Positions 23,041-31,728 of a stretch of 64,000 nucleotides of DNA are shown here, piece after piece. The notes beneath the pieces were generated by a model. That model made no database searches. It saw only the letters and a program-made list of their open reading frames with translations, and was not told the DNA's origin. The stretch comes from Chryseomicrobium sp. FSL W7-1435 (lineage in GTDB: Bacteria; Bacillota; Bacilli; Bacillales_A; Planococcaceae): positions 62,001-126,000 of the forward strand of contig NZ_CP151997.1 of the NCBI RefSeq assembly GCF_038595005.1, written 5' to 3'. The position numbers and the translations under genes were made by a program. Every line of letters starts with the position of its first letter. The first letter of the stretch is position 1.

Positions 23041-24516
23041 TTATGACTTTTTCTTTAAGATGACGTTTGCTACATTCATTCCAGACATCGTGACCATCGG
23101 CGAGCCTCCACCAGGATGTGTACTGCCTCCCACGAAGTATAAGTTATTGAGGTCACGACTTTTATTTCGTGGACGTAAAAATGCATCCTGCTTCCGGTTA
23201 CTTGAAAGCCCATAGAGTGCACCTCGAAACGCTCCAAATCGTTGGGCAATTTCGGATGGTGGGATGACACGCTCTACCACTAAATGGTCCCTAATCGCTA
23301 ACCCTTTCTTTTCGAGAAGGTCATAAATATGCTCTTTGTACTCATTGACATTATAAGACTCTTTCCCGTTTTTAGGTAAAGGCGGGGCATTAACAAGGAT
23401 GAAGAGATTATCTCCATCGGGAGAACGCTCACGATCGGTCACACTAGAATTACAAATATAAATTGTGGGATCCTTAGCTAACTCTTGTTTAGTAAAGAGT
23501 GCATCAAATTCAGCTTGATAATCTTGCGAGAAATAGACAGAGTGATGATTCATGTTTTTCAATCGTACCTTCAAACCTGCTAAAATAACGAATGCTGAAA
23601 TGGATGGTTCTATTTTTTCAATCTGTTTATTTGTAAACGACGGACGGTCTTTTTCCTCTACCAGTTCTGAGTAAGCTTTTAATAAATCCGCATTCATGAC
23701 CACCTCATCCCCTGTCCAAAGCCAAATTCCTTTAGAATGAAGTTGCGTGATGCGTTTGTTTTGAATTGTCACGTTATCTACTTCTGTGTTGAGATGAAAC
23801 CGCACACCTAATTCCTTTGCCACTTTATGAAAGGCTCTGGCAATACAGACCGTTCCACCTTTCACAGTATACACTCCTTGTATCAGTTCCAAATAAGCAA
23901 TCATACTAAAAGTGGCAGGTGCTTGATAGGGAGACGAACCAATGTAAGTCGCGTATCTTCCGAATGCTTGTAACACAGTAGGAGCTGTGAAATAACGTTT
24001 AAAAAAATGATCCATCGATTCTAAAGGTCTTACTTGAGTTAGAGCATAGCCAAGACTAGGCGACAAATAATCTGTCCAAGAACGAAACGTCTTTGGGAAA
24101 AAGTGAGTTTCCGATAATTCATACAAACGAGTCAGCTCTTTTAACAGGGAGTAGTAGTTTTTAGCTCCAAGTGAGTCTACTTTTTCAAGCTGTTCTACCA
24201 TATATTCTTTGTTGCGACTGAAGACAAGTGAAGTTCCGTCCGAAAAGTAGTTGGTCGTGTGGTGCTTGAGTGGAATAAAAGTTAAGTACTCTTCTGCACG
24301 GCGACCAGTTTGCTCGATTACCTGTTTAAACACATGAGGCATCGTGATGGTATTGGGTCCAAAGTCAAACCCGTAAGTCTGAAGCTGCACAGGCATCAGT
24401 TTGCCGCCGATATGAGCGTTCTTTTCAAACACGTCTACTTCATATCCCGCATTTGCAAGTGTAATAGCAGCCGATAGCCCTCCAAGGCCAGCCCCAATAA
24501 TGGCAACACGCTTCAT
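23041..24516 (-). CDS. crtP: CrtN-family carotenoid oxygenase (CrtP/CrtNb-like)
   Basis: 491 residues. N-terminal FAD motif AIIGAGLGGLSAAITLANAGYEV with EKN, C-terminal FAD motif NLYFVGGSTHPGGGSPMVTMSG. Of the three CrtN-type proteins here, this fits best the 4,4'-diaponeurosporene(diapolycopene) terminal oxidase group (CrtP/CrtNb), which oxidises the end methyl group towards aldehyde or acid; this subtype call is from overall resemblance and gene order, next to the glycosyltransferase. ATG overlaps the crtQ stop (ATGA). The GNAT gene follows. Confidence 0.82.
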   Translation of the reverse strand: MKRVAIIGAGLGGLSAAITLANAGYEVDVFEKNAHIGGKLMPVQLQTYGFDFGPNTITMPHVFKQVIEQTGRRAEEYLTFIPLKHHTTNYFSDGTSLVFSRNKEYMVEQLEKVDSLGAKNYYSLLKELTRLYELSETHFFPKTFRSWTDYLSPSLGYALTQVRPLESMDHFFKRYFTAPTVLQAFGRYATYIGSSPYQAPATFSMIAYLELIQGVYTVKGGTVCIARAFHKVAKELGVRFHLNTEVDNVTIQNKRITQLHSKGIWLWTGDEVVMNADLLKAYSELVEEKDRPSFTNKQIEKIEPSISAFVILAGLKVRLKNMNHHSVYFSQDYQAEFDALFTKQELAKDPTIYICNSSVTDRERSPDGDNLFILVNAPPLPKNGKESYNVNEYKEHIYDLLEKKGLAIRDHLVVERVIPPSEIAQRFGAFRGALYGLSSNRKQDAFLRPRNKSRDLNNLYFVGGSTHPGGGSPMVTMSGMNVANVILKKKS

Positions 24517-25622
24517 CCATAAAACCTACCTTTCCATTCAACTTGCTGTCCTTGCAACGATTGTCTCATAGCGTTCCCTAACAGTAATACGAGTGCTAAA
24601 GCGGACGCAGGAAGTAGAAATGCCAAGAACAGGGGTTCACGTGTTGTACGGTAAACTATCAATGCCTGTAGCGTAATCAGAGCATAAGGAACTAGCCATA
24701 ATGGTTGATCTAAAAAGAGAGCAAGTACTAGAAGTATCGCTGGAAACACGTACATCGTTACATAAAAAATAATAACTAGTGTCGCCATACCCACAGACCG
24801 ACCTAATCCATTGTATATGTTCTTTGAGAAGCCCTTCCAAACACCTTCATTTGTCTCGTACATCGTACAACTACAAAATTCAGTGATGTTCGCCAGCCAC
24901 ATTTTGTATCCATTTGCTTTCATTCGTTTCGAGATAGCGACATCCTCTACGATTTCACTGTGCACCGATTCATGCCCACCTATCGCTTCATACGCGGTTC
25001 TTTCAAAAAACATGAAGCCCCCATGCGCAGCAGTTGCAGCTGGCCATTTGGTCCAGTTGGCTAAAGCAATCGGCAGATGAAACAGGACAATGAAATGCTG
25101 CATAGGAACTAGGAGCTGATTCAGCCATGTAGGCAAGAGGAAGCGCGAAAATCCAGATAATAAGAAAAGTTTATGGCGTTGCATAAAGGCTAATGCTGTC
25201 TCTACAGCGGCTGGTTCAATTCTCACATCGGCATCAATATAGAGTAAATACTCACCCTTTGCTTGTTGTCCAAGTTGATGACACGCATAGACTTTTCCAA
25301 TCCATCCCTCAGGTTTCTCAGAGCCCGTCACTATACGAAATCGATTGTCTCCATAAGTGGCTAAATTCAAAGCATCCCGTGTACCGTCCGTCGATTCATC
25401 GTCTAAAATAAGGACTTCAAAATTTGGGTATGTCTGTTTCTTTAAGGAACTGACCATTCCCTTTACATTCATTTGTTCGTTACGCATAGGAACCAAAATT
25501 GAAACTAGTGGCTCCCCTACCACTCTCATTCCCCGTTTTAAGCTTGGCAATAGGAGACTATGGAGAAACGTGATTGCCACAAAGATACTAAGTATAGCAA
25601 TAAACCACAATTCCCATACCAT
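24513..25622 (-). CDS. crtQ: CrtQ-like family-2 glycosyltransferase
   Basis: 369 residues. One N-terminal membrane helix, then a GT-A domain with LVSILVPMRNE, ILDDESTDGT, the metal-binding LYIDADVRI and IVEDVAISKRMKANGY, followed by three or four C-terminal membrane helices. This is the CrtQ layout, which glucosylates a C30 carotenoid acid or hydroxyl. The second ATG (25622) is used: GAGGAGG is seven bases upstream, while the first ATG nearly touches it. Four-base overlap with the next gene and 12 bases after the acyltransferase. Confidence 0.88.
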   Translation of the reverse strand: MVWELWFIAILSIFVAITFLHSLLLPSLKRGMRVVGEPLVSILVPMRNEQMNVKGMVSSLKKQTYPNFEVLILDDESTDGTRDALNLATYGDNRFRIVTGSEKPEGWIGKVYACHQLGQQAKGEYLLYIDADVRIEPAAVETALAFMQRHKLFLLSGFSRFLLPTWLNQLLVPMQHFIVLFHLPIALANWTKWPAATAAHGGFMFFERTAYEAIGGHESVHSEIVEDVAISKRMKANGYKMWLANITEFCSCTMYETNEGVWKGFSKNIYNGLGRSVGMATLVIIFYVTMYVFPAILLVLALFLDQPLWLVPYALITLQALIVYRTTREPLFLAFLLPASALALVLLLGNAMRQSLQGQQVEWKGRFYG

Positions 25623-25634
25623 CTTCATTCCTCC

Positions 25635-26291
25635 TCACAGTACTTGATAGCTAGTTAAGTTCTCGTGGACAACATCTTTTTTGAGTAGTTCAAGTTGCTT
25701 TTCTAACTGCTCTTCCAAAGCGTGCATCTTTTCTTTGCGAGATGTTCCGTTTAAAGAAGAATAAAAGATCGGTTCTCCTCCACGTATCGCCACTTCTGAC
25801 TTTTGATGATGACCGTGCCAATAGTATGTAGTAATCGGAATGATAGGAACGGTCTGCAATTGGCGCGCCAGATGACCTATTCCTGATTCTAATGCGAGCG
25901 GTCTCTTCTCTTGAGAATATTCTTCTCCTTGAGGGAAGATCCACACACTAGTCCCAGTCTCTAAAAGTTTTCTTGTGTAAGTTAATGACTCTACAATATC
26001 TCGTGTTGAGCTCTTATTGATTGAAAAAGCTCCCACAAAACGGAAGTACCAAAATTTCTTCAATCCCTTTTCATGCATCATAATATGCGTGCTACGATCA
26101 ATGACCGTATGACGCAAATGAAAATAAAGCAAGCCGTCCCACCAGGAGGAATGATTGGCTATATAAATGGCAGGTTGAGGATACGGATTTTCGCCCTTCC
26201 AATACACCGCATGAAACTGCCGACGTGTCTGAGCTAACGTCACGCGACGCATCATCCATTCAAATGCTCGATTACGTTTTGCTTGAATCAT
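25635..26291 (-). CDS. PlsC-like acyltransferase of the carotenoid operon
   Basis: 218 residues. Lysophosphatidic-acid-acyltransferase fold with the catalytic NHSSWWD (HX4D), GAFSINKSS, and the substrate-binding FPQGEE and PIIPITTYY blocks. In C30 carotenoid clusters of Planococcaceae and relatives an acyltransferase esterifies the sugar attached by the glycosyltransferase; this protein is of the PlsC type rather than the small membrane CrtO of Staphylococcus. Its start overlaps the end of the cruF-like gene by 20 bases, and crtQ follows by 12 bases. Confidence 0.83.
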   Translation of the reverse strand: MIQAKRNRAFEWMMRRVTLAQTRRQFHAVYWKGENPYPQPAIYIANHSSWWDGLLYFHLRHTVIDRSTHIMMHEKGLKKFWYFRFVGAFSINKSSTRDIVESLTYTRKLLETGTSVWIFPQGEEYSQEKRPLALESGIGHLARQLQTVPIIPITTYYWHGHHQKSEVAIRGGEPIFYSSLNGTSRKEKMHALEEQLEKQLELLKKDVVHENLTSYQVL

Positions 26292-27042
26292 GTCGGCTCC
26301 TCCACTCTGCAGCGAGATAGAATAGTATCGTTAATACAAAAGTGAGACCTATCGCTAACCATAAGCCTGCGTTAGCAGCCGTGACCATGAACATGAAAAT
26401 CATCATTCCATAAAGGAAGTAAATGCGTTTTTCCCATTTGTTAAAGGAAGATTGTTGGCTACCGTCACTTTGGAATAACCAGATGACTGCGTGAAGAATA
26501 CTAGCCACCACAAACCAGCCCATGAAATTAGTCCATGGAATATCGTAATAAAGTCCACCTTCCACCCAAATCCAATATTCATTGGCTTTGAAGGCAACAG
26601 GGTCAATAATTAAATCCATTACGACAGCTGCCAAACTCCCCAAGACAACTGTAGCGATTCCCGGTCGTTGTGTGATACGCATAGCGATTGCATGTGTTGT
26701 GGACATGACGAGTAACCACGCAAAGCCAATCGTAAAGGGGATATCAAAAATTTTGGCACCAAATCGATCTGTATAATCATACTCTCCAAATAATATGCCA
26801 TAAGCAGAGCCCAGATATTCCATAAATGATGAGAATAGATAAATAACCAGTGTTATAGTTACAGCCTTTTTAGGTGAAAATAAGGCAAAGAAATAAAAAA
26901 TACCCATGACTCCTGCTAACACTAAAAATACTGTGTTAGCCCACTCTAACCAAGGTGGCAGGAGATCAAAGCCAACCAGCACCACTCCTACTGCAAACCA
27001 GAAGAGAAATAACTGGTGCGCTCGATCTTTCCACTTTTCCAT
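26272..27042 (-). CDS. cruF: CruF-family carotenoid 1,2-hydratase-like membrane protein
   Basis: 256 residues with seven or so membrane helices. The family (CruF, DUF422) adds water across the terminal double bond of acyclic carotenoids. Seen motifs: FMEYLGSAYGILFGEYDYTDRFG, IPFTIGFAWLLVM, MDLIIDPVA and YWIWVEGGLYYDIPWTNFMGWF, with conserved acidic residues typical of CruF. In a C30 context the product would be a hydroxylated, 5,6-dihydro carotenoid that the glycosyltransferase could then glucosylate. AAAGGAG lies eight bases before the ATG. Preceded by a likely internal terminator after crtM. Confidence 0.82.
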   Translation of the reverse strand: MEKWKDRAHQLFLFWFAVGVVLVGFDLLPPWLEWANTVFLVLAGVMGIFYFFALFSPKKAVTITLVIYLFSSFMEYLGSAYGILFGEYDYTDRFGAKIFDIPFTIGFAWLLVMSTTHAIAMRITQRPGIATVVLGSLAAVVMDLIIDPVAFKANEYWIWVEGGLYYDIPWTNFMGWFVVASILHAVIWLFQSDGSQQSSFNKWEKRIYFLYGMMIFMFMVTAANAGLWLAIGLTFVLTILFYLAAEWRSRHDSSKT

Positions 27043-27067: not shown

Positions 27068-27091
27068 AAAAAACACCCTTATCGGGTGCTT
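27068..27091 (-). terminator. Likely internal terminator after crtM
   Basis: On the minus strand AAGCACCC, loop GATAA, GGGTGTTT, running straight into TTTTACTACC. The 5' arm contains the crtM stop codon. It lies inside the crt operon, 26 bases before the cruF start, so it probably acts as a partial terminator that lowers expression of the downstream tailoring genes. Confidence 0.65.
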
Positions 27092-27923
27092 ATTGAAGTA
27101 CTGCTAATATTTCTGCTTTGCGTTCATCCGAGACAAAATGTTTTGTGTCAAAGACACGATAGTCTTTCTCACGAATAGTGGAAAGGATATGGCGATAAAA
27201 ATGAGAAGCACTCTTCAATGGAATTTGAGAACGCTTTGGATAGAAATGAATCGAGCGATTAGCTTGATCGTAATAGGCCTCCGCTTGAACAGCTAATTCT
27301 TCCCAAGAACGAATAAATCCCTCACTGATAACCCCTTTGCGCATACACCATTCGGACACTTCAAAATGAGCTAGTCGATCTGTCGGCATATAAATTCGGC
27401 CGCGGTTAAGATCTTCCCCTACGTCGCGAAGAATGTTGGTAAGTTGCATAGCCAGTCCAAGTGTTATCGCATCTTCTTTCAATTCCTGCTGGCGAGTAGG
27501 TGCCAGAATTGGCAACAACATCAATCCAACCGTGCTTGCTACGTGATAGCAATACACCAGTAGATCATCCATCGTTTTGTAACGATTATTTGTTAAATCC
27601 ATCTCTTGGCCTTTTAACTGTTCCTTAAACGGTTCTGGATCCATGTCATAACGCTTAAAGACGTCTGCAAGTGCCAGCCACATTGGATCAGCTTCGTCGT
27701 AACGACCATCTAAAAAATTTTGAAACTCCTGCTCGAATTCACGTAAGCTCGTGACAGGGTTCAGTCCTTCATCGACTAAGTCGTCTACCCGTCTGCAGAA
27801 GGCATAAACTGCCCAAACTGCTAAACGATCCGCTTTTGGTAATAATGAAAAGGCTTTGTAAAATGTCCGGGAATTTTCAGCAATGACGCGTTCACACTCT
27901 TGGTAGGCTTGCTTGACGTTCAT
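27090..27923 (-). CDS. crtM: Dehydrosqualene (diapophytoene) synthase
   Basis: 277 residues. Condenses two farnesyl diphosphates to C30 dehydrosqualene, the first committed carotenoid step. Both Asp-rich motifs are present: DDLVD (about 47-51) and DVGED in NILRDVGEDLNRGRIYMP. Early residues SRTFYKAFSLLP are conserved. Choice of CrtM over C40 CrtB follows from the CrtN-type partners in the operon. It starts 32 bases before the end of crtN, in a different frame, behind GGGGG, so the two are translationally linked. Confidence 0.94.
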   Translation of the reverse strand: MNVKQAYQECERVIAENSRTFYKAFSLLPKADRLAVWAVYAFCRRVDDLVDEGLNPVTSLREFEQEFQNFLDGRYDEADPMWLALADVFKRYDMDPEPFKEQLKGQEMDLTNNRYKTMDDLLVYCYHVASTVGLMLLPILAPTRQQELKEDAITLGLAMQLTNILRDVGEDLNRGRIYMPTDRLAHFEVSEWCMRKGVISEGFIRSWEELAVQAEAYYDQANRSIHFYPKRSQIPLKSASHFYRHILSTIREKDYRVFDTKHFVSDERKAEILAVLQ

Positions 27924-29376
27924 TCAGTTGTCCCCCTTTTACACTCAAATCATTTAGTACTGCTTCGGCAGTCAAATAAGCGCCTTGCATGACTATTGGA
28001 ATTCCACCGCCAGGATGTGTGGATGCACCTACCGCATATAAATTATTAAATTTCGTTGGTTTGGCTTGTGGTCGAAACACGCCTGACTGACCTAGCATCG
28101 GCGCAATCCCAAAATTACCACCTTGGAAATACCCTTCACTTTTGGCCGTTTCAGGTGTACGGATCTCCATCCATTCAGTTCGTTCACGTAAATCTGGGTA
28201 TCCGTTTGCTTCTAAACGATCTAGTAGACGCTCGCGCCAGTCTATTACATCGTCCCATTGTATATCAGTACCCGATGGTACCGGGACTAGAATATAAAGA
28301 ACACTTTTCCCTTTAGGGGCCAGTGATTCGTCTATGACACTTGGATTAAAAATGTAGATAGAAGGTTCACTTGGTACTTGTTTTGAACGAAATACCGCAT
28401 CCATATGTCCTTTAAAATCAGGACCCATTAGATAGGAGTGCATTGGTCGTTGATCGTATTTCCCTTCGACACCTAAGTACATTAAATAGCAACTAGATGA
28501 AGGTATATACGTACGTTTCGACACGGCCGGTAAAAGGTCCTTCAAAAATGGCATTTCTCCGTTGAAAATGACGGCTTCATGCAGTGTTTCACCCGCTTGT
28601 GTTCGAACACCGGTTGCACGACCTTCAGCAGATAATATTGATTCAACTTCACTCTCAAAATAAATGGTAACACCACGCGAACGTAATGTTTTTTCTAGCA
28701 GCGGTATTAAAGAGGCATAACCGCCTTGCACATAATAAACACCATGTTCATGTTCAGAGAAAGAGACCAATGAATACATAGCTGGCACCTGATAGGGATT
28801 CCCACCAATATAAAGGGATTGCAATGCGTAAGCTTGTTGTAGTCGAGTGTCTTTGAAATAACCCTTCATTAACCCGCTGACCGTTTGATACGGTTTAAGA
28901 GCAAGCAGTTTACGTACAGATGTAAACGTCCAAAAATCTTTTTTTACGGAAAATGATTTAGTGAGAAAAGCAGACATCCCAATATCGAATCGCTGTTTTC
29001 CTTCCGTTAAAAATTGATTAAAGCCATCCACATCTTGTGGAAACAACCGCTCAATTTCTTGTTGTTGTTTGATAGCGTCTGCATATTTTGTATAAACTTC
29101 TCCATCCTCAAATTGCATAGAATAGAGAGGATCACAACGTAATAAACGAAGACCTGATGTATCTACACCTGCTTTTTTCAGCAAATCTAAAAACATATCG
29201 GGTAATAACACAATTGTTGGGCCTTCATCAATGCAATAGTCGCCGTTTTGAACGAATGCTAATCGTCCGCCCAGCTTTTTACTTTTTTCATAAATCGTCA
29301 CTTCATGCCCTGCTTGCGTCAAATACAAGGCAGTCATTAAACCGCCAACGCCTCCACCAATAAGTGCTATCGTCAT
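27892..29376 (-). CDS. crtN: Dehydrosqualene desaturase, CrtN-type
   Basis: 494 residues. FAD motif ALIGGGVGGLMTALYLTQAGHEV, IDEGPTIVLLPDMF, the LYIGGNPYQVPAMYSL block and C-terminal YAVGASTHPGGGIPIVMQGA. IVLLPD and the LYIG-P-P block resemble staphylococcal CrtN more than the other two homologues, so this is the best candidate for stepwise desaturation of dehydrosqualene. Start at 29376 overlaps the stop of the upstream gene (ATGA) and has GGGAGGGG five bases upstream. The C-terminal 10 codons overlap crtM. Confidence 0.88.
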   Translation of the reverse strand: MTIALIGGGVGGLMTALYLTQAGHEVTIYEKSKKLGGRLAFVQNGDYCIDEGPTIVLLPDMFLDLLKKAGVDTSGLRLLRCDPLYSMQFEDGEVYTKYADAIKQQQEIERLFPQDVDGFNQFLTEGKQRFDIGMSAFLTKSFSVKKDFWTFTSVRKLLALKPYQTVSGLMKGYFKDTRLQQAYALQSLYIGGNPYQVPAMYSLVSFSEHEHGVYYVQGGYASLIPLLEKTLRSRGVTIYFESEVESILSAEGRATGVRTQAGETLHEAVIFNGEMPFLKDLLPAVSKRTYIPSSSCYLMYLGVEGKYDQRPMHSYLMGPDFKGHMDAVFRSKQVPSEPSIYIFNPSVIDESLAPKGKSVLYILVPVPSGTDIQWDDVIDWRERLLDRLEANGYPDLRERTEWMEIRTPETAKSEGYFQGGNFGIAPMLGQSGVFRPQAKPTKFNNLYAVGASTHPGGGIPIVMQGAYLTAEAVLNDLSVKGGQLNERQASLPRV

Positions 29377-30902
29377 GCTGTCCCCTCCCATGCTGGCAGC
29401 ATACCAACCGGAATACGCTCTTTACCTTCTTCAGCGAGGATTCCATTGGTTACAATACGAGCGGATTCTAAAATTGTCGGTAAGCCACTGCCTGGGTGAG
29501 TTCCCCCACCTACTAGCCAACAACTTTCAAGCTCTTCAAATTTGTTATGAGGACGGAAGACCATCATTTGAGACAATTGATGCCCCAAATTAAATGTTGC
29601 GCCTTTGTAGACGGAAATATCTTGCTCCCATTGAACAGGAGTTAAAATTTTCTCAGATACTATATGTTGAGATAGATCTTTGAATTCTGATTTCTCTTCA
29701 ATAGTCCGGATCACCAAATCACGGAATGCCTGTTGCTCTTCTTGCCACCCAATTTTGCTGTCGTTATTAGGAACTGGGGCTAAGATGTATAAAGCGGACT
29801 GTCCAACTGGTGCAAGTGTTGGATCCGTTACACTAGCATTTTGAATATAAATAGAAGGGTCTGCAGATAATTTCTTTGTATGGGTGATTTCTTCTACATT
29901 TGTCTTATAATCTTTTGCAAATAAGATATTGTGATGAGGTAAGTCATATACTTTATCAATGCCCAGATAGAGCATAAAAGTTGAGCAGGAATATTTTTTC
30001 TTTTCCAAATTCTCAGTTGAATACTTTTTTAGTATACCTTCATCCACAAGGTTTGTCATGACGTGCCCAAAGTCGCCGTTCACAACTACTTCGTCCACTT
30101 CTACTTCTTCTCCAGATTCCAATAAAAGCCCTGTCACTTTACGCCCGTCGAGTTTGAATTTCTTTACTCCTTGCCCTAAGTGAATGCGTCCACCGAACTC
30201 TTCAACTACTTTTGCCATAGAAGTAGATAGTTGGTTGACTCCACCAATCGGGTGATAAATCCCATAAGCATGTTCCATATAAGAAAGGATTGAAAATGCG
30301 CCTGGACATTCCCAAGGAGACATACCTAAGTATTTAGATTGGAACGTGAAGGCAAGCTTCAATTCTTCATGATTGAAGTAGCGACTTAAGACATCATAGA
30401 GCGTTTTACCAATTTCTAATTGAGGCAAAGCTTTGACAACAGAAGGTCGCATGTAATGAATTAATTTATCCATTCGTGATTGCAGAATAGGGGTTAAAGC
30501 CTCTAACTTTTTACTACTTTCATAAAGGAATTGATCATAGCCACCACTGTCTCCAGGGTACACTTCTTCAATTCGACGCTTCATCTCTTCTCGATCGCGC
30601 GTCATGTCCAATGTTCGTTTGCCATCAAATGTTAATTGGTACATTTCTGGAAGCTCCACTAAGTCCATGTAATCGTGCATATTGCGACCCGCTGCTTGAA
30701 AAAGTTCGTCGACAATATGGATCATACTTAAAAATGTGGGTCCCATGTCAAAGCGGAAACCGTCCATTTCGATGGCGGCATTGCGCCCACCCACTACTTC
30801 ATTTTTTTCATACACATCAATCTCAAAACCTTTTGATGCGAGTAGCATAGCCGCTGCAAGACCACCTGGCCCTGCTCCAATGACTGCTATTCTCTTTTTC
30901 AT
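29373..30902 (-). CDS. CrtN/CrtI-family carotenoid desaturase-oxidase (CrtNc-like), first gene of the operon
   Basis: 509 residues. FAD motif AVIGAGPGGLAAAMLLASKGFEI, FDMGPTFLSM, the block SPWECPGAFSILSYMEHAYGIYHPIGG and C-terminal WLVGGGTHPGSGLPTILESA. The SPWECPGAFSIL block is nearer to CrtI-like phytoene desaturases than to staphylococcal CrtN, and fits the third CrtN homologue (often called CrtNc) of Bacillus/Halobacillus/Planococcus clusters. It could desaturate or oxidise one end of the C30 chain; sequence alone does not decide. GAGGAGG lies seven bases before the ATG, and the phased TNTACAAT repeats lie just upstream. Confidence 0.83.
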   Translation of the reverse strand: MKKRIAVIGAGPGGLAAAMLLASKGFEIDVYEKNEVVGGRNAAIEMDGFRFDMGPTFLSMIHIVDELFQAAGRNMHDYMDLVELPEMYQLTFDGKRTLDMTRDREEMKRRIEEVYPGDSGGYDQFLYESSKKLEALTPILQSRMDKLIHYMRPSVVKALPQLEIGKTLYDVLSRYFNHEELKLAFTFQSKYLGMSPWECPGAFSILSYMEHAYGIYHPIGGVNQLSTSMAKVVEEFGGRIHLGQGVKKFKLDGRKVTGLLLESGEEVEVDEVVVNGDFGHVMTNLVDEGILKKYSTENLEKKKYSCSTFMLYLGIDKVYDLPHHNILFAKDYKTNVEEITHTKKLSADPSIYIQNASVTDPTLAPVGQSALYILAPVPNNDSKIGWQEEQQAFRDLVIRTIEEKSEFKDLSQHIVSEKILTPVQWEQDISVYKGATFNLGHQLSQMMVFRPHNKFEELESCWLVGGGTHPGSGLPTILESARIVTNGILAEEGKERIPVGMLPAWEGTA

Positions 30903-30918
30903 GATGGCCCCTCCTCTT

Positions 30919-30948
30919 TATACAATACTTGTACAATGATTATACAAT
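30919..30948 (-). promoter_or_regulatory. Three 11-bp-phased TNTACAAT repeats (CarH/LitR-like operator) over the crt -10 box
   Basis: On the plus strand TATACAAT at 30919, TGTACAAT at 30930 and TATACAAT at 30941 are spaced by exactly 11 bases; a degenerate fourth (TTTCGAAT) falls at 30952, again in phase. The minus-strand -10 candidate TATAAT (30939-30944) lies within the array, with TTGATA 21 bases upstream, an over-long spacer of the MerR-promoter kind. MerR-family B12 photoreceptors CarH/LitR bind such 11-bp-spaced NTNTACAN repeats in carotenoid promoters. Confidence 0.7.
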
Positions 30949-31112
30949 CGTTTTCGAATTTTGGCTATCAATTCGCTGAAATGTTTATTTTTGTACAACC
31001 TTCGAACAATGTTTTTGTAAAGGAAACCGTGACAATTAGCTTCTACACCTTAAGTTTAGTGTGACCTGTTGTGCGTCATTCGTCTATACTTAAAAGATTT
31101 AAATTTCTGCAC

Positions 31113-31136
31113 AAAAAAAATCACCCGTTTGGGTGA
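31113..31136 (-). terminator. Terminator of the DUF3231 gene
   Basis: TCACCC/GGGTGA stem with GTTT loop (31121-31136), followed on the minus strand by eight T residues. Confidence 0.87.
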
Positions 31137-31148
31137 CTTGGTTACTCA

Positions 31149-31667
31149 TTAAGATTTAGATTGGACGTGTGGTGCTACGTGCAGTGGTGGGACAACAAGC
31201 CATGCTTTTTCTTTAAGTAATCGCAGCATCTTCATGCCTGCCATGGCTTTTGCGGCATGAAATTGTCCAAACATCATCCCAATGTCTTCTCGAATACATT
31301 GCCCCATCACCATACTGCACGAAACCAATCCTTGCCCTAAGTTCATCGATACGATATTTGCGATTTCTGGATCAAGCAACCTTGCACCTGTCGGAATGTC
31401 TTGTGCATTCGCCACTGGACGTTCGGGTGTAGTTGGTGGTAAGCCAATGCCATTTTCTTTCAATACCTTTGCCAGTTCTTGAGTTTCTTGTTTCATTGTA
31501 TGCAACAAACTCGTTAGCTCCTGTTTCAAGTCGTCGTCACCTACATGATTGCTAAACGTTTCATACAGTCGCATCAAGCCATTTGTTGACATGAGATACG
31601 CCCATACCCCCGTCACTTCACCGCTATGCATAGGTTCTTTCGATGGATTTCCTGATAAAATCCCCAA
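31149..31667 (-). CDS. DUF3231 family protein
   Basis: 172 residues, all-helical, ferritin-like in appearance. The opening MGILSGNPSKEPMHSGEVTGVWAYL matches DUF3231 proteins of Bacillales, which often come as a tandem of two such domains; this one has a single domain. Function unknown. The start codon is TTG at 31667, eight bases after AAAGGAGG; no ATG fits. Own terminator, so monocistronic. Confidence 0.82.
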   Translation of the reverse strand: MGILSGNPSKEPMHSGEVTGVWAYLMSTNGLMRLYETFSNHVGDDDLKQELTSLLHTMKQETQELAKVLKENGIGLPPTTPERPVANAQDIPTGARLLDPEIANIVSMNLGQGLVSCSMVMGQCIREDIGMMFGQFHAAKAMAGMKMLRLLKEKAWLVVPPLHVAPHVQSKS

Positions 31668-31728
31668 AATCGTAACCTCCTTTAGTAGTCAACATAACTA
31701 GCTTGAACCATTAATGGAGGTCTTATAC

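Follow-up and report, generated by a model that had tools for sequence, protein, structure and literature searches.

Three 11-bp-phased repeats over the carotenoid promoter of a Chryseomicrobium genome have the features of a CarH/LitR-type operator shared with photolyase and litR loci

The carotenoid (crt) genes of Chryseomicrobium sp. FSL W7-1435 lie on the minus strand of a 64,000-nucleotide stretch of the genome (the window), and the short phased repeats over their promoter raise the question of whether these constitute an operator and, if so, which regulator binds them and to what signal it responds. A sequence-only reading had proposed a CarH/LitR-type light- and B12-responsive operator in front of a C30 carotenoid operon. 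The C30 assignment is supported by the synthase, the best solved match of which is a chain named CrtM; the operon and its promoter are set out in Table 1. No riboswitch or other known RNA was found in the crt leader at the gathering threshold (30500-31700), and PADLOC returned just a weak match to a DNA-binding domain.

Table 1. Features of the crt promoter and operon (window coordinates).
Feature	Position	Strand	Remarks
Third CrtI/CrtN-family gene	23041..24516	-	TIGR02734, 363.9 bits
Glycosyltransferase	24513..25628	-	adjoins acyltransferase gene
Acyltransferase	25635..26291	-	adjoins glycosyltransferase gene
CruF-like carotenoid biosynthesis protein	26272..27042	-	PF04240
CrtM-like dehydrosqualene synthase	27090..27923	-	best solved match 8is6 'CrtM', 299 bits
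Second CrtI/CrtN-family gene	27892..29391	-	TIGR02734, 362.5 bits
CrtN-like phytoene/dehydrosqualene desaturase family gene, operon gene 1	29373..30902	-	TIGR02734, 490.5 bits
Ribosome-binding site AGGAGG	30910..30915	-	read from sequence
Repeat 3 (crt direction)	30919..30926	+	TATACAAT, sense ATTGTATA; adjoins ribosome-binding site; unchanged in three relatives
Repeat 2	30930..30937	+	TGTACAAT; unchanged in three relatives
-10 box TATAAT, crt promoter	30939..30944	-	within first repeat
Repeat 1	30941..30948	+	TATACAAT, sense ATTGTATA; overlaps -10 box
-35-like TAGCCA	30962..30967	-	spacer 17; kept in 3/4 genomes, TAGCTA in fourth
Terminator-like hairpin	31118..31139	-	behind upstream DUF3231 gene; sets that gene apart from crt promoter

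In published CarH operators, TnnACA repeats follow one another in tandem at 11-bp intervals, three or four in number, and cover the -35 or -10 (PMC9304148); in the dark these operators are occupied by a tetramer carrying adenosylcobalamin (AdoCbl), which light releases (PMC9304148, PMC8156234). The three repeats reported at 30919, 30930 and 30941 are present as TATACAAT, TGTACAAT and TATACAAT, with core hexamers TATACA, TGTACA and TATACA at a spacing of exactly 11 bp, so that the array has at least three tandem TnnACA direct repeats in the published register; in the crt sense (minus strand) it reads TTGTATAATCATTGTACAAGTATTGTATAAAGAGGAGG. It also overlaps its target promoter, as had been claimed: the -10/-35 pair has 10/12 consensus matches, and in the crt direction the -10 falls in the first repeat, while repeats 2 and 3 take up the leader ahead of the ribosome-binding site. 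A degenerate fourth repeat, proposed at 30952, does not stand, since the TTTTCG found there agrees with the pattern at 3 of its 5 specified positions and the three relatives compared do not share it. Upstream of the promoter, at 30992-31021, TTTACA and TGTACA lie 24 bp apart, outside the 11-bp register, and are kept in 2/3 relatives.

The regulator had been placed outside the window, and the genome encodes one fitting gene there: litR (2519531-2520442; 304 aa product) is the only gene with both a MerR and a B12-binding match, from 4 and 6 such matches in the genome, respectively. MerR_1 scores above its cut-off, and the B12-binding match (27.3 bits) falls below the Pfam gathering cut-off of 32.1; a profile built from 33 LitR relatives aligns with Thermus CarH (5c8d) along its whole length (profile positions 4-276, E 4.4e-29), and in LitR, as in CarH, the MerR DNA-binding domain precedes a four-helix and a B12-binding domain. 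The recognition-helix motif RxWERRY is RKWEERY in LitR (5/6 specified residues), with R, W, E, R, and Y invariant in the 33 sequences. The lower-axial-ligand motif D/ExHx2G/P is present as ELHEVP, and the SxT/V that follows it is SAS. The Wx9EH motif, which contacts the adenosyl group, is Wx9ES in LitR, and the NCBIfam CarH model NF052513 gives 101.2 bits against a cut-off of 400; by these two measures LitR is not filed as a CarH photoreceptor. The published GxxxP motif was uninformative as a discriminator, being absent also from most relatives with an intact Wx9EH.

In Thermus CarH the key AdoCbl-binding residues are W131, E141, H142, and H177 (PMC11796333), and the two histidines above the cobalt are H132, the light-state ligand, and H142. 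LitR keeps W131, E141, and H177, with Glu in place of H132 and Ser in place of H142. The same pattern extends through the host family (70 rows, with the own-genome protein entered twice, hence 69 distinct sequences): W131, E141, and the lower ligand H177 occur in 69/69, H142 in none, and H132 in one. In a wider set of 24 sequences, drawn from the named relatives and a class-wide search, H132 is absent throughout (22/24 have Glu there), which means that its loss alone is not telling. EH is present in 23/24 of that set and in 15/15 sequences from other genera of the host family, which points to a loss of H142 specific to this LitR clade, by one or several events; this is said with the reservation that, in a tree of 108 sequences, two H-bearing sequences (L176 and L177) fall inside the H142-less clade, with node support of 0.657. 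The one sequence of the wider set without EH, a LitR-like protein of another family (L173), lacks both H142 and H177, the latter being Arg, and is perhaps cobalamin-independent. In our view LitR is a variant that the published photoreceptor signature does not cover but that probably works like a CarH photoreceptor.

A MerR-B12 gene with the same repeats in its own promoter was the proposed check on the operator assignment. One such gene was found, litR, and its divergent promoter carries the triple with one mismatch (2520495-2520522), between litR and a divergent row of membrane-protein-like, ABC permease-like, and ABC ATPase-like genes (by ORF reading), the last gene of the row encoding a photolyase. 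The second exact triple in the genome (538202-538229) lies 26 bp upstream of a gene that scores above the NCBIfam cut-off for DASH cryptochromes, with a photolyase-domain gene diverging on the other side. A photolyase query matched three genes in the genome, and all three adjoin, or sit in the row behind, the photolyase-pair or litR site. The crt, DASH-cryptochrome/photolyase, and litR sites share a layout, with a TATAAT -10 in the first repeat and the further repeats downstream; thus, a protein bound at any of the three should block RNA polymerase. Another one-mismatch triple in this genome (L014:1501-1528) is directly upstream of a gene for a secreted DUF4397 protein, followed by a sortase gene, and in another genus an exact triple (L081:1501-1528) likewise lies directly upstream of a secreted DUF4397 protein gene. 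The remaining four one-mismatch triples in the genome have no evident link to light. In genome G038 (locus L253) the DASH-cryptochrome gene is reduced to a fragment interrupted by a stop, and the 3-kb stretch around it no longer contains any TnnACA pair at 11-bp phasing.

Conservation upstream of crt had been named as a further requirement, and it holds both in three named relatives and at crtN promoters of the host family. A CrtN-like protein search yielded nine named-relative loci. The repeats are identical in Chryseomicrobium aureum, C. excrementi, and Tetzosporium hominis, in an invariant run of 39 columns with a differing region upstream; in repeat 1, TATACA is invariant and the final base of TATACAAT is a different one in these relatives. 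The crtN locus of Jeotgalibacillus sp. S-D1 has three phased repeats, at the J. salarius locus and at three Sutcliffiella/Bacillus loci one or two repeats are exact and their neighbours degenerate, and the Salimicrobium flavidum locus has none of the repeats. Full-length MerR-B12 proteins are encoded in 8/9 of these genomes, and Salimicrobium has weak partial matches only. Across the host family, a triple with at least 13/15 matches occurs at 28/30 crtN promoters, among which are many close relatives, so that these are not 28 independent cases (null by single-base shuffling). Seven of the 30 crtN loci are in genomes with a regulator checked as the intact EH kind; both kinds of regulator therefore appear to use the same operator.

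Among 250 host-family genomes, 37 carry the exact triple, with 48 occurrences in all versus 4 for the control. Once overlaps are merged, these make up 41 distinct places, and 17 of them adjoin genes of the proposed regulon or its regulator: 12 precede crtN-like genes, 3 belong to the photolyase pair, and 2 more are at litR. The other 24 include coding-sequence matches, Pho-like sites, and places of no assigned context. Around 95 litR loci in 90 genomes, a crtN-like gene lies within 1.5 kb in at least 25, a lower bound since the crtN list is partial, and a photolyase gene within 6 kb in 27; at 43, no crtN-like or photolyase gene from the lists is nearby. Regions upstream of litR reach 13/15 matches in 22/69 cases (null, 0.24%) and fall below that in 47/69. 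Photolyase-type repeats occur at 3/30 photolyase loci, all three in the genus Chryseomicrobium. The sequence features of the crt element are those of a CarH/LitR-type operator, and the operator reading is well supported by the presence of litR in the genome, the triple at its promoter, the conservation at crt, and the triple at the photolyase site.

Alongside the observed repeats, promoter geometry, conservation, and links to litR, crt, and photolyase genes, we infer binding, repression, cobalamin loading, and light release by LitR. In this model the three repeats would be the operator of the single LitR-type regulator of the genome; LitR, which in the dark most likely carries AdoCbl, would bind them head to tail over the -10 and the crt leader and so block RNA polymerase; and light would break the Co-C bond, releasing LitR and allowing transcription of the C30 carotenoid genes. 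The same switch would act on the DASH-cryptochrome/photolyase pair and on the operon diverging from litR, the last gene of which is the third photolyase gene, such that pigment and DNA repair would come on together. The genome encodes an adenosyltransferase and a methylmalonyl-CoA mutase, and AdoCbl is thus plausibly present; together with the published operator design, this makes dark repression with light release the most likely mode of action, and light control via AdoCbl would be the likeliest mechanism. Weighing against this model are the subthreshold B12-binding match, the 24 triple places away from crtN, photolyase, and litR genes, the 43 litR loci with neither neighbour, the 47 litR upstream regions below 13/15, and the restriction of photolyase-type repeats to one genus. 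We consider the full model, from dark repressor to shared crt/photolyase switch, probable.

The weak point of this mechanism is the adenosyl pocket of LitR, where H132 is a lesser obstacle than H142: the related photoreceptor CtMerR has Arg at the H132 position and retains a light response (PMC11796333), and Bacilli with an intact EH mostly have Glu there. In Thermus CarH, the H132A variant stays mostly tetrameric in the light (PMC10442372). Lacking both H142 and H132, LitR must differ from Thermus CarH in the details of its photochemical step. A broader generalization, to which we would give somewhat less than even weight, is that the Caryophanaceae LitR clade as a whole may repress pigment and photolyase genes in a light-dependent manner with neither H132 nor H142, through a different adenosyl pocket and light-release step missed by the published signature, and may do so on 11-bp operators that are the same as those used by the intact Wx9EH regulators of other genera of the family.

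The alternative that survives best accepts the operator and disputes the sensor: the LitR clade may no longer be an AdoCbl light sensor, and may instead read cobalamin status or be relieved by a separate photosensor protein. The absence of H142 from 69/69 and of H132 from 68/69 distinct host-family sequences would be in keeping with this, as would the precedents for indirect light control in the B12-independent CarA/CarS system (PMC8156234) and in the class II LitR PmlR2/LOV system (PMC9758184); however, the H132 loss is uninformative given the 24/24 of the wider set, and W131, E141, and H177 are invariant in the very same sequences, as expected if adenosylcobalamin is still bound. A LOV partner is ruled out as far as a motif scan of the genome goes, which gave no match at 0 or 1 mismatch and 5 at two mismatches versus 6 in the control; an exact LOV-domain motif match does occur in one relative (L227, genome G020). 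A further point in favor of this alternative is the presence in the genome of a separate cobalamin-binding protein whose Wx9EH is intact. On balance, a LitR that has lost AdoCbl-based light sensing seems to us rather unlikely. The separate protein (L005:1393-2399, at about 1154.7-1155.7 kb of the genome) is a stand-alone 214-aa protein with intact Wx9EH and ExHxxG, adjoining two ORFs of 118 aa and 278 aa, the longer of which is PAS/STAS-like by eye; in this setting it may supply a stress-signalling module with a B12-based light input.

A second alternative assigns the site to another MerR-family protein, which would use the TTGTACAA palindrome in repeat 2. Three more MerR-domain genes are present in the genome, and repeat 2 is indeed a perfect 8-bp palindrome, but what is conserved is the direct-repeat phasing, not a spaced dyad symmetry, and it is litR that is linked to crt and photolyase genes; we consider this reading very improbable.

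It might also be supposed that there is no regulator at all, and that in an AT-rich promoter TGTATAAT-like -10 sequences have come to follow one another by chance, given that TATAAT forms part of the first repeat and that single TNTACAAT octamers are not above chance frequency in the window (16 observed versus 13.5 expected). Such octamers being common, the signal is the 11-bp phasing. The window contains T.TACA 181 times, both strands counted, from which 0.015 exact triples are expected genome-wide, against two of TNTACA-N5-TNTACA-N5-TNTACA found in the 2.71-Mb genome; the triple with at most one mismatch is found at 8 places. The reversed-pattern control gave 0 in both searches, and no exact triple arose in 10 Mb of sequence simulated with an order-3 Markov model. 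On these counts, and on the host-family counts with their control, a chance origin of the triples is rejected. The unbroken invariant run over all three repeats in four genomes with differing flanks, and the recurrence of the repeats at crtN promoters throughout the host family, also speak against a chance run, which was already disfavoured and which we hold to be extremely unlikely.

The Bacillus PhoP hexamer is TT(A/C/T)ACA, and a PhoP-type phosphate box likewise consists of tandem hexamers about 11 bp apart. Some host-family pattern matches are Pho-like (for example, L085, which precedes a phosphate-binding-protein-like gene and has a response-regulator-like gene as a neighbour), but at crt a Pho box, the least probable of the readings and one already disfavoured, is rejected on the second base of the repeats (A, G, and A, not T) and on the clustering of sites at crt, photolyase, and litR genes.

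The LitR operator proposed here would offer a testable regulon for coloured Bacillota, consisting of carotenoid genes, three photolyase-family genes, and the regulator's own region. The LitR clade provides, in addition, a series of naturally occurring mutants of a B12 photosensor, with W131, E141, and H177 kept in 69 sequences and H142 in none. If the clade still responds to light, the accepted cobalamin-photoreceptor signature is too narrow and new green-light switches have been missed; if it does not, the clade represents a second route from a photoreceptor to something else, parallel to CarA. Among open-licence PMC papers on CarH/LitR or carotenoid light control in Planococcaceae, Planococcus, or Chryseomicrobium, or on a CarH regulon with photolyase in Bacillus, none reports the present system.

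Four known systems bear comparison. The class II LitR proteins of Pseudomonas, which have short-LOV partners, resemble LitR in their T(G/A)TACA half-sites and in the light-inducible photolyase and cryptochrome genes (PMC9758184); they differ in that the half-sites are 12 bp apart (TGTACA-N12-TGTACA) and that no carotenoid operon is described in the accessible text (PMC9758184), whereas the present genome has no LOV motif at 0-1 mismatch. CarA of Myxococcus xanthus, which is related to CarH, deviates from Wx9EH as LitR does and uses the same kind of operator (PMC9304148, PMC8156234), although CarA keeps EH and has lost the Trp region, whereas LitR keeps W and E and has lost the His. Thermus thermophilus CarH (5c8d, 3whp) shares with LitR the domain order, W131, E141, and H177, and a three-repeat operator, but has His at positions 132 and 142, where LitR has Glu and Ser, and its operator covers the -35, not the -10 as here. 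In Bacillus (Priestia) megaterium, CarH/LitR has four repeats and an intact Wx9EH, against three repeats and Wx9ES here, and as in the present case the host belongs to the Bacillota and the tandem 11-bp TnnACA repeats lie over the -35 or -10 of a carotenoid promoter (PMC9304148).
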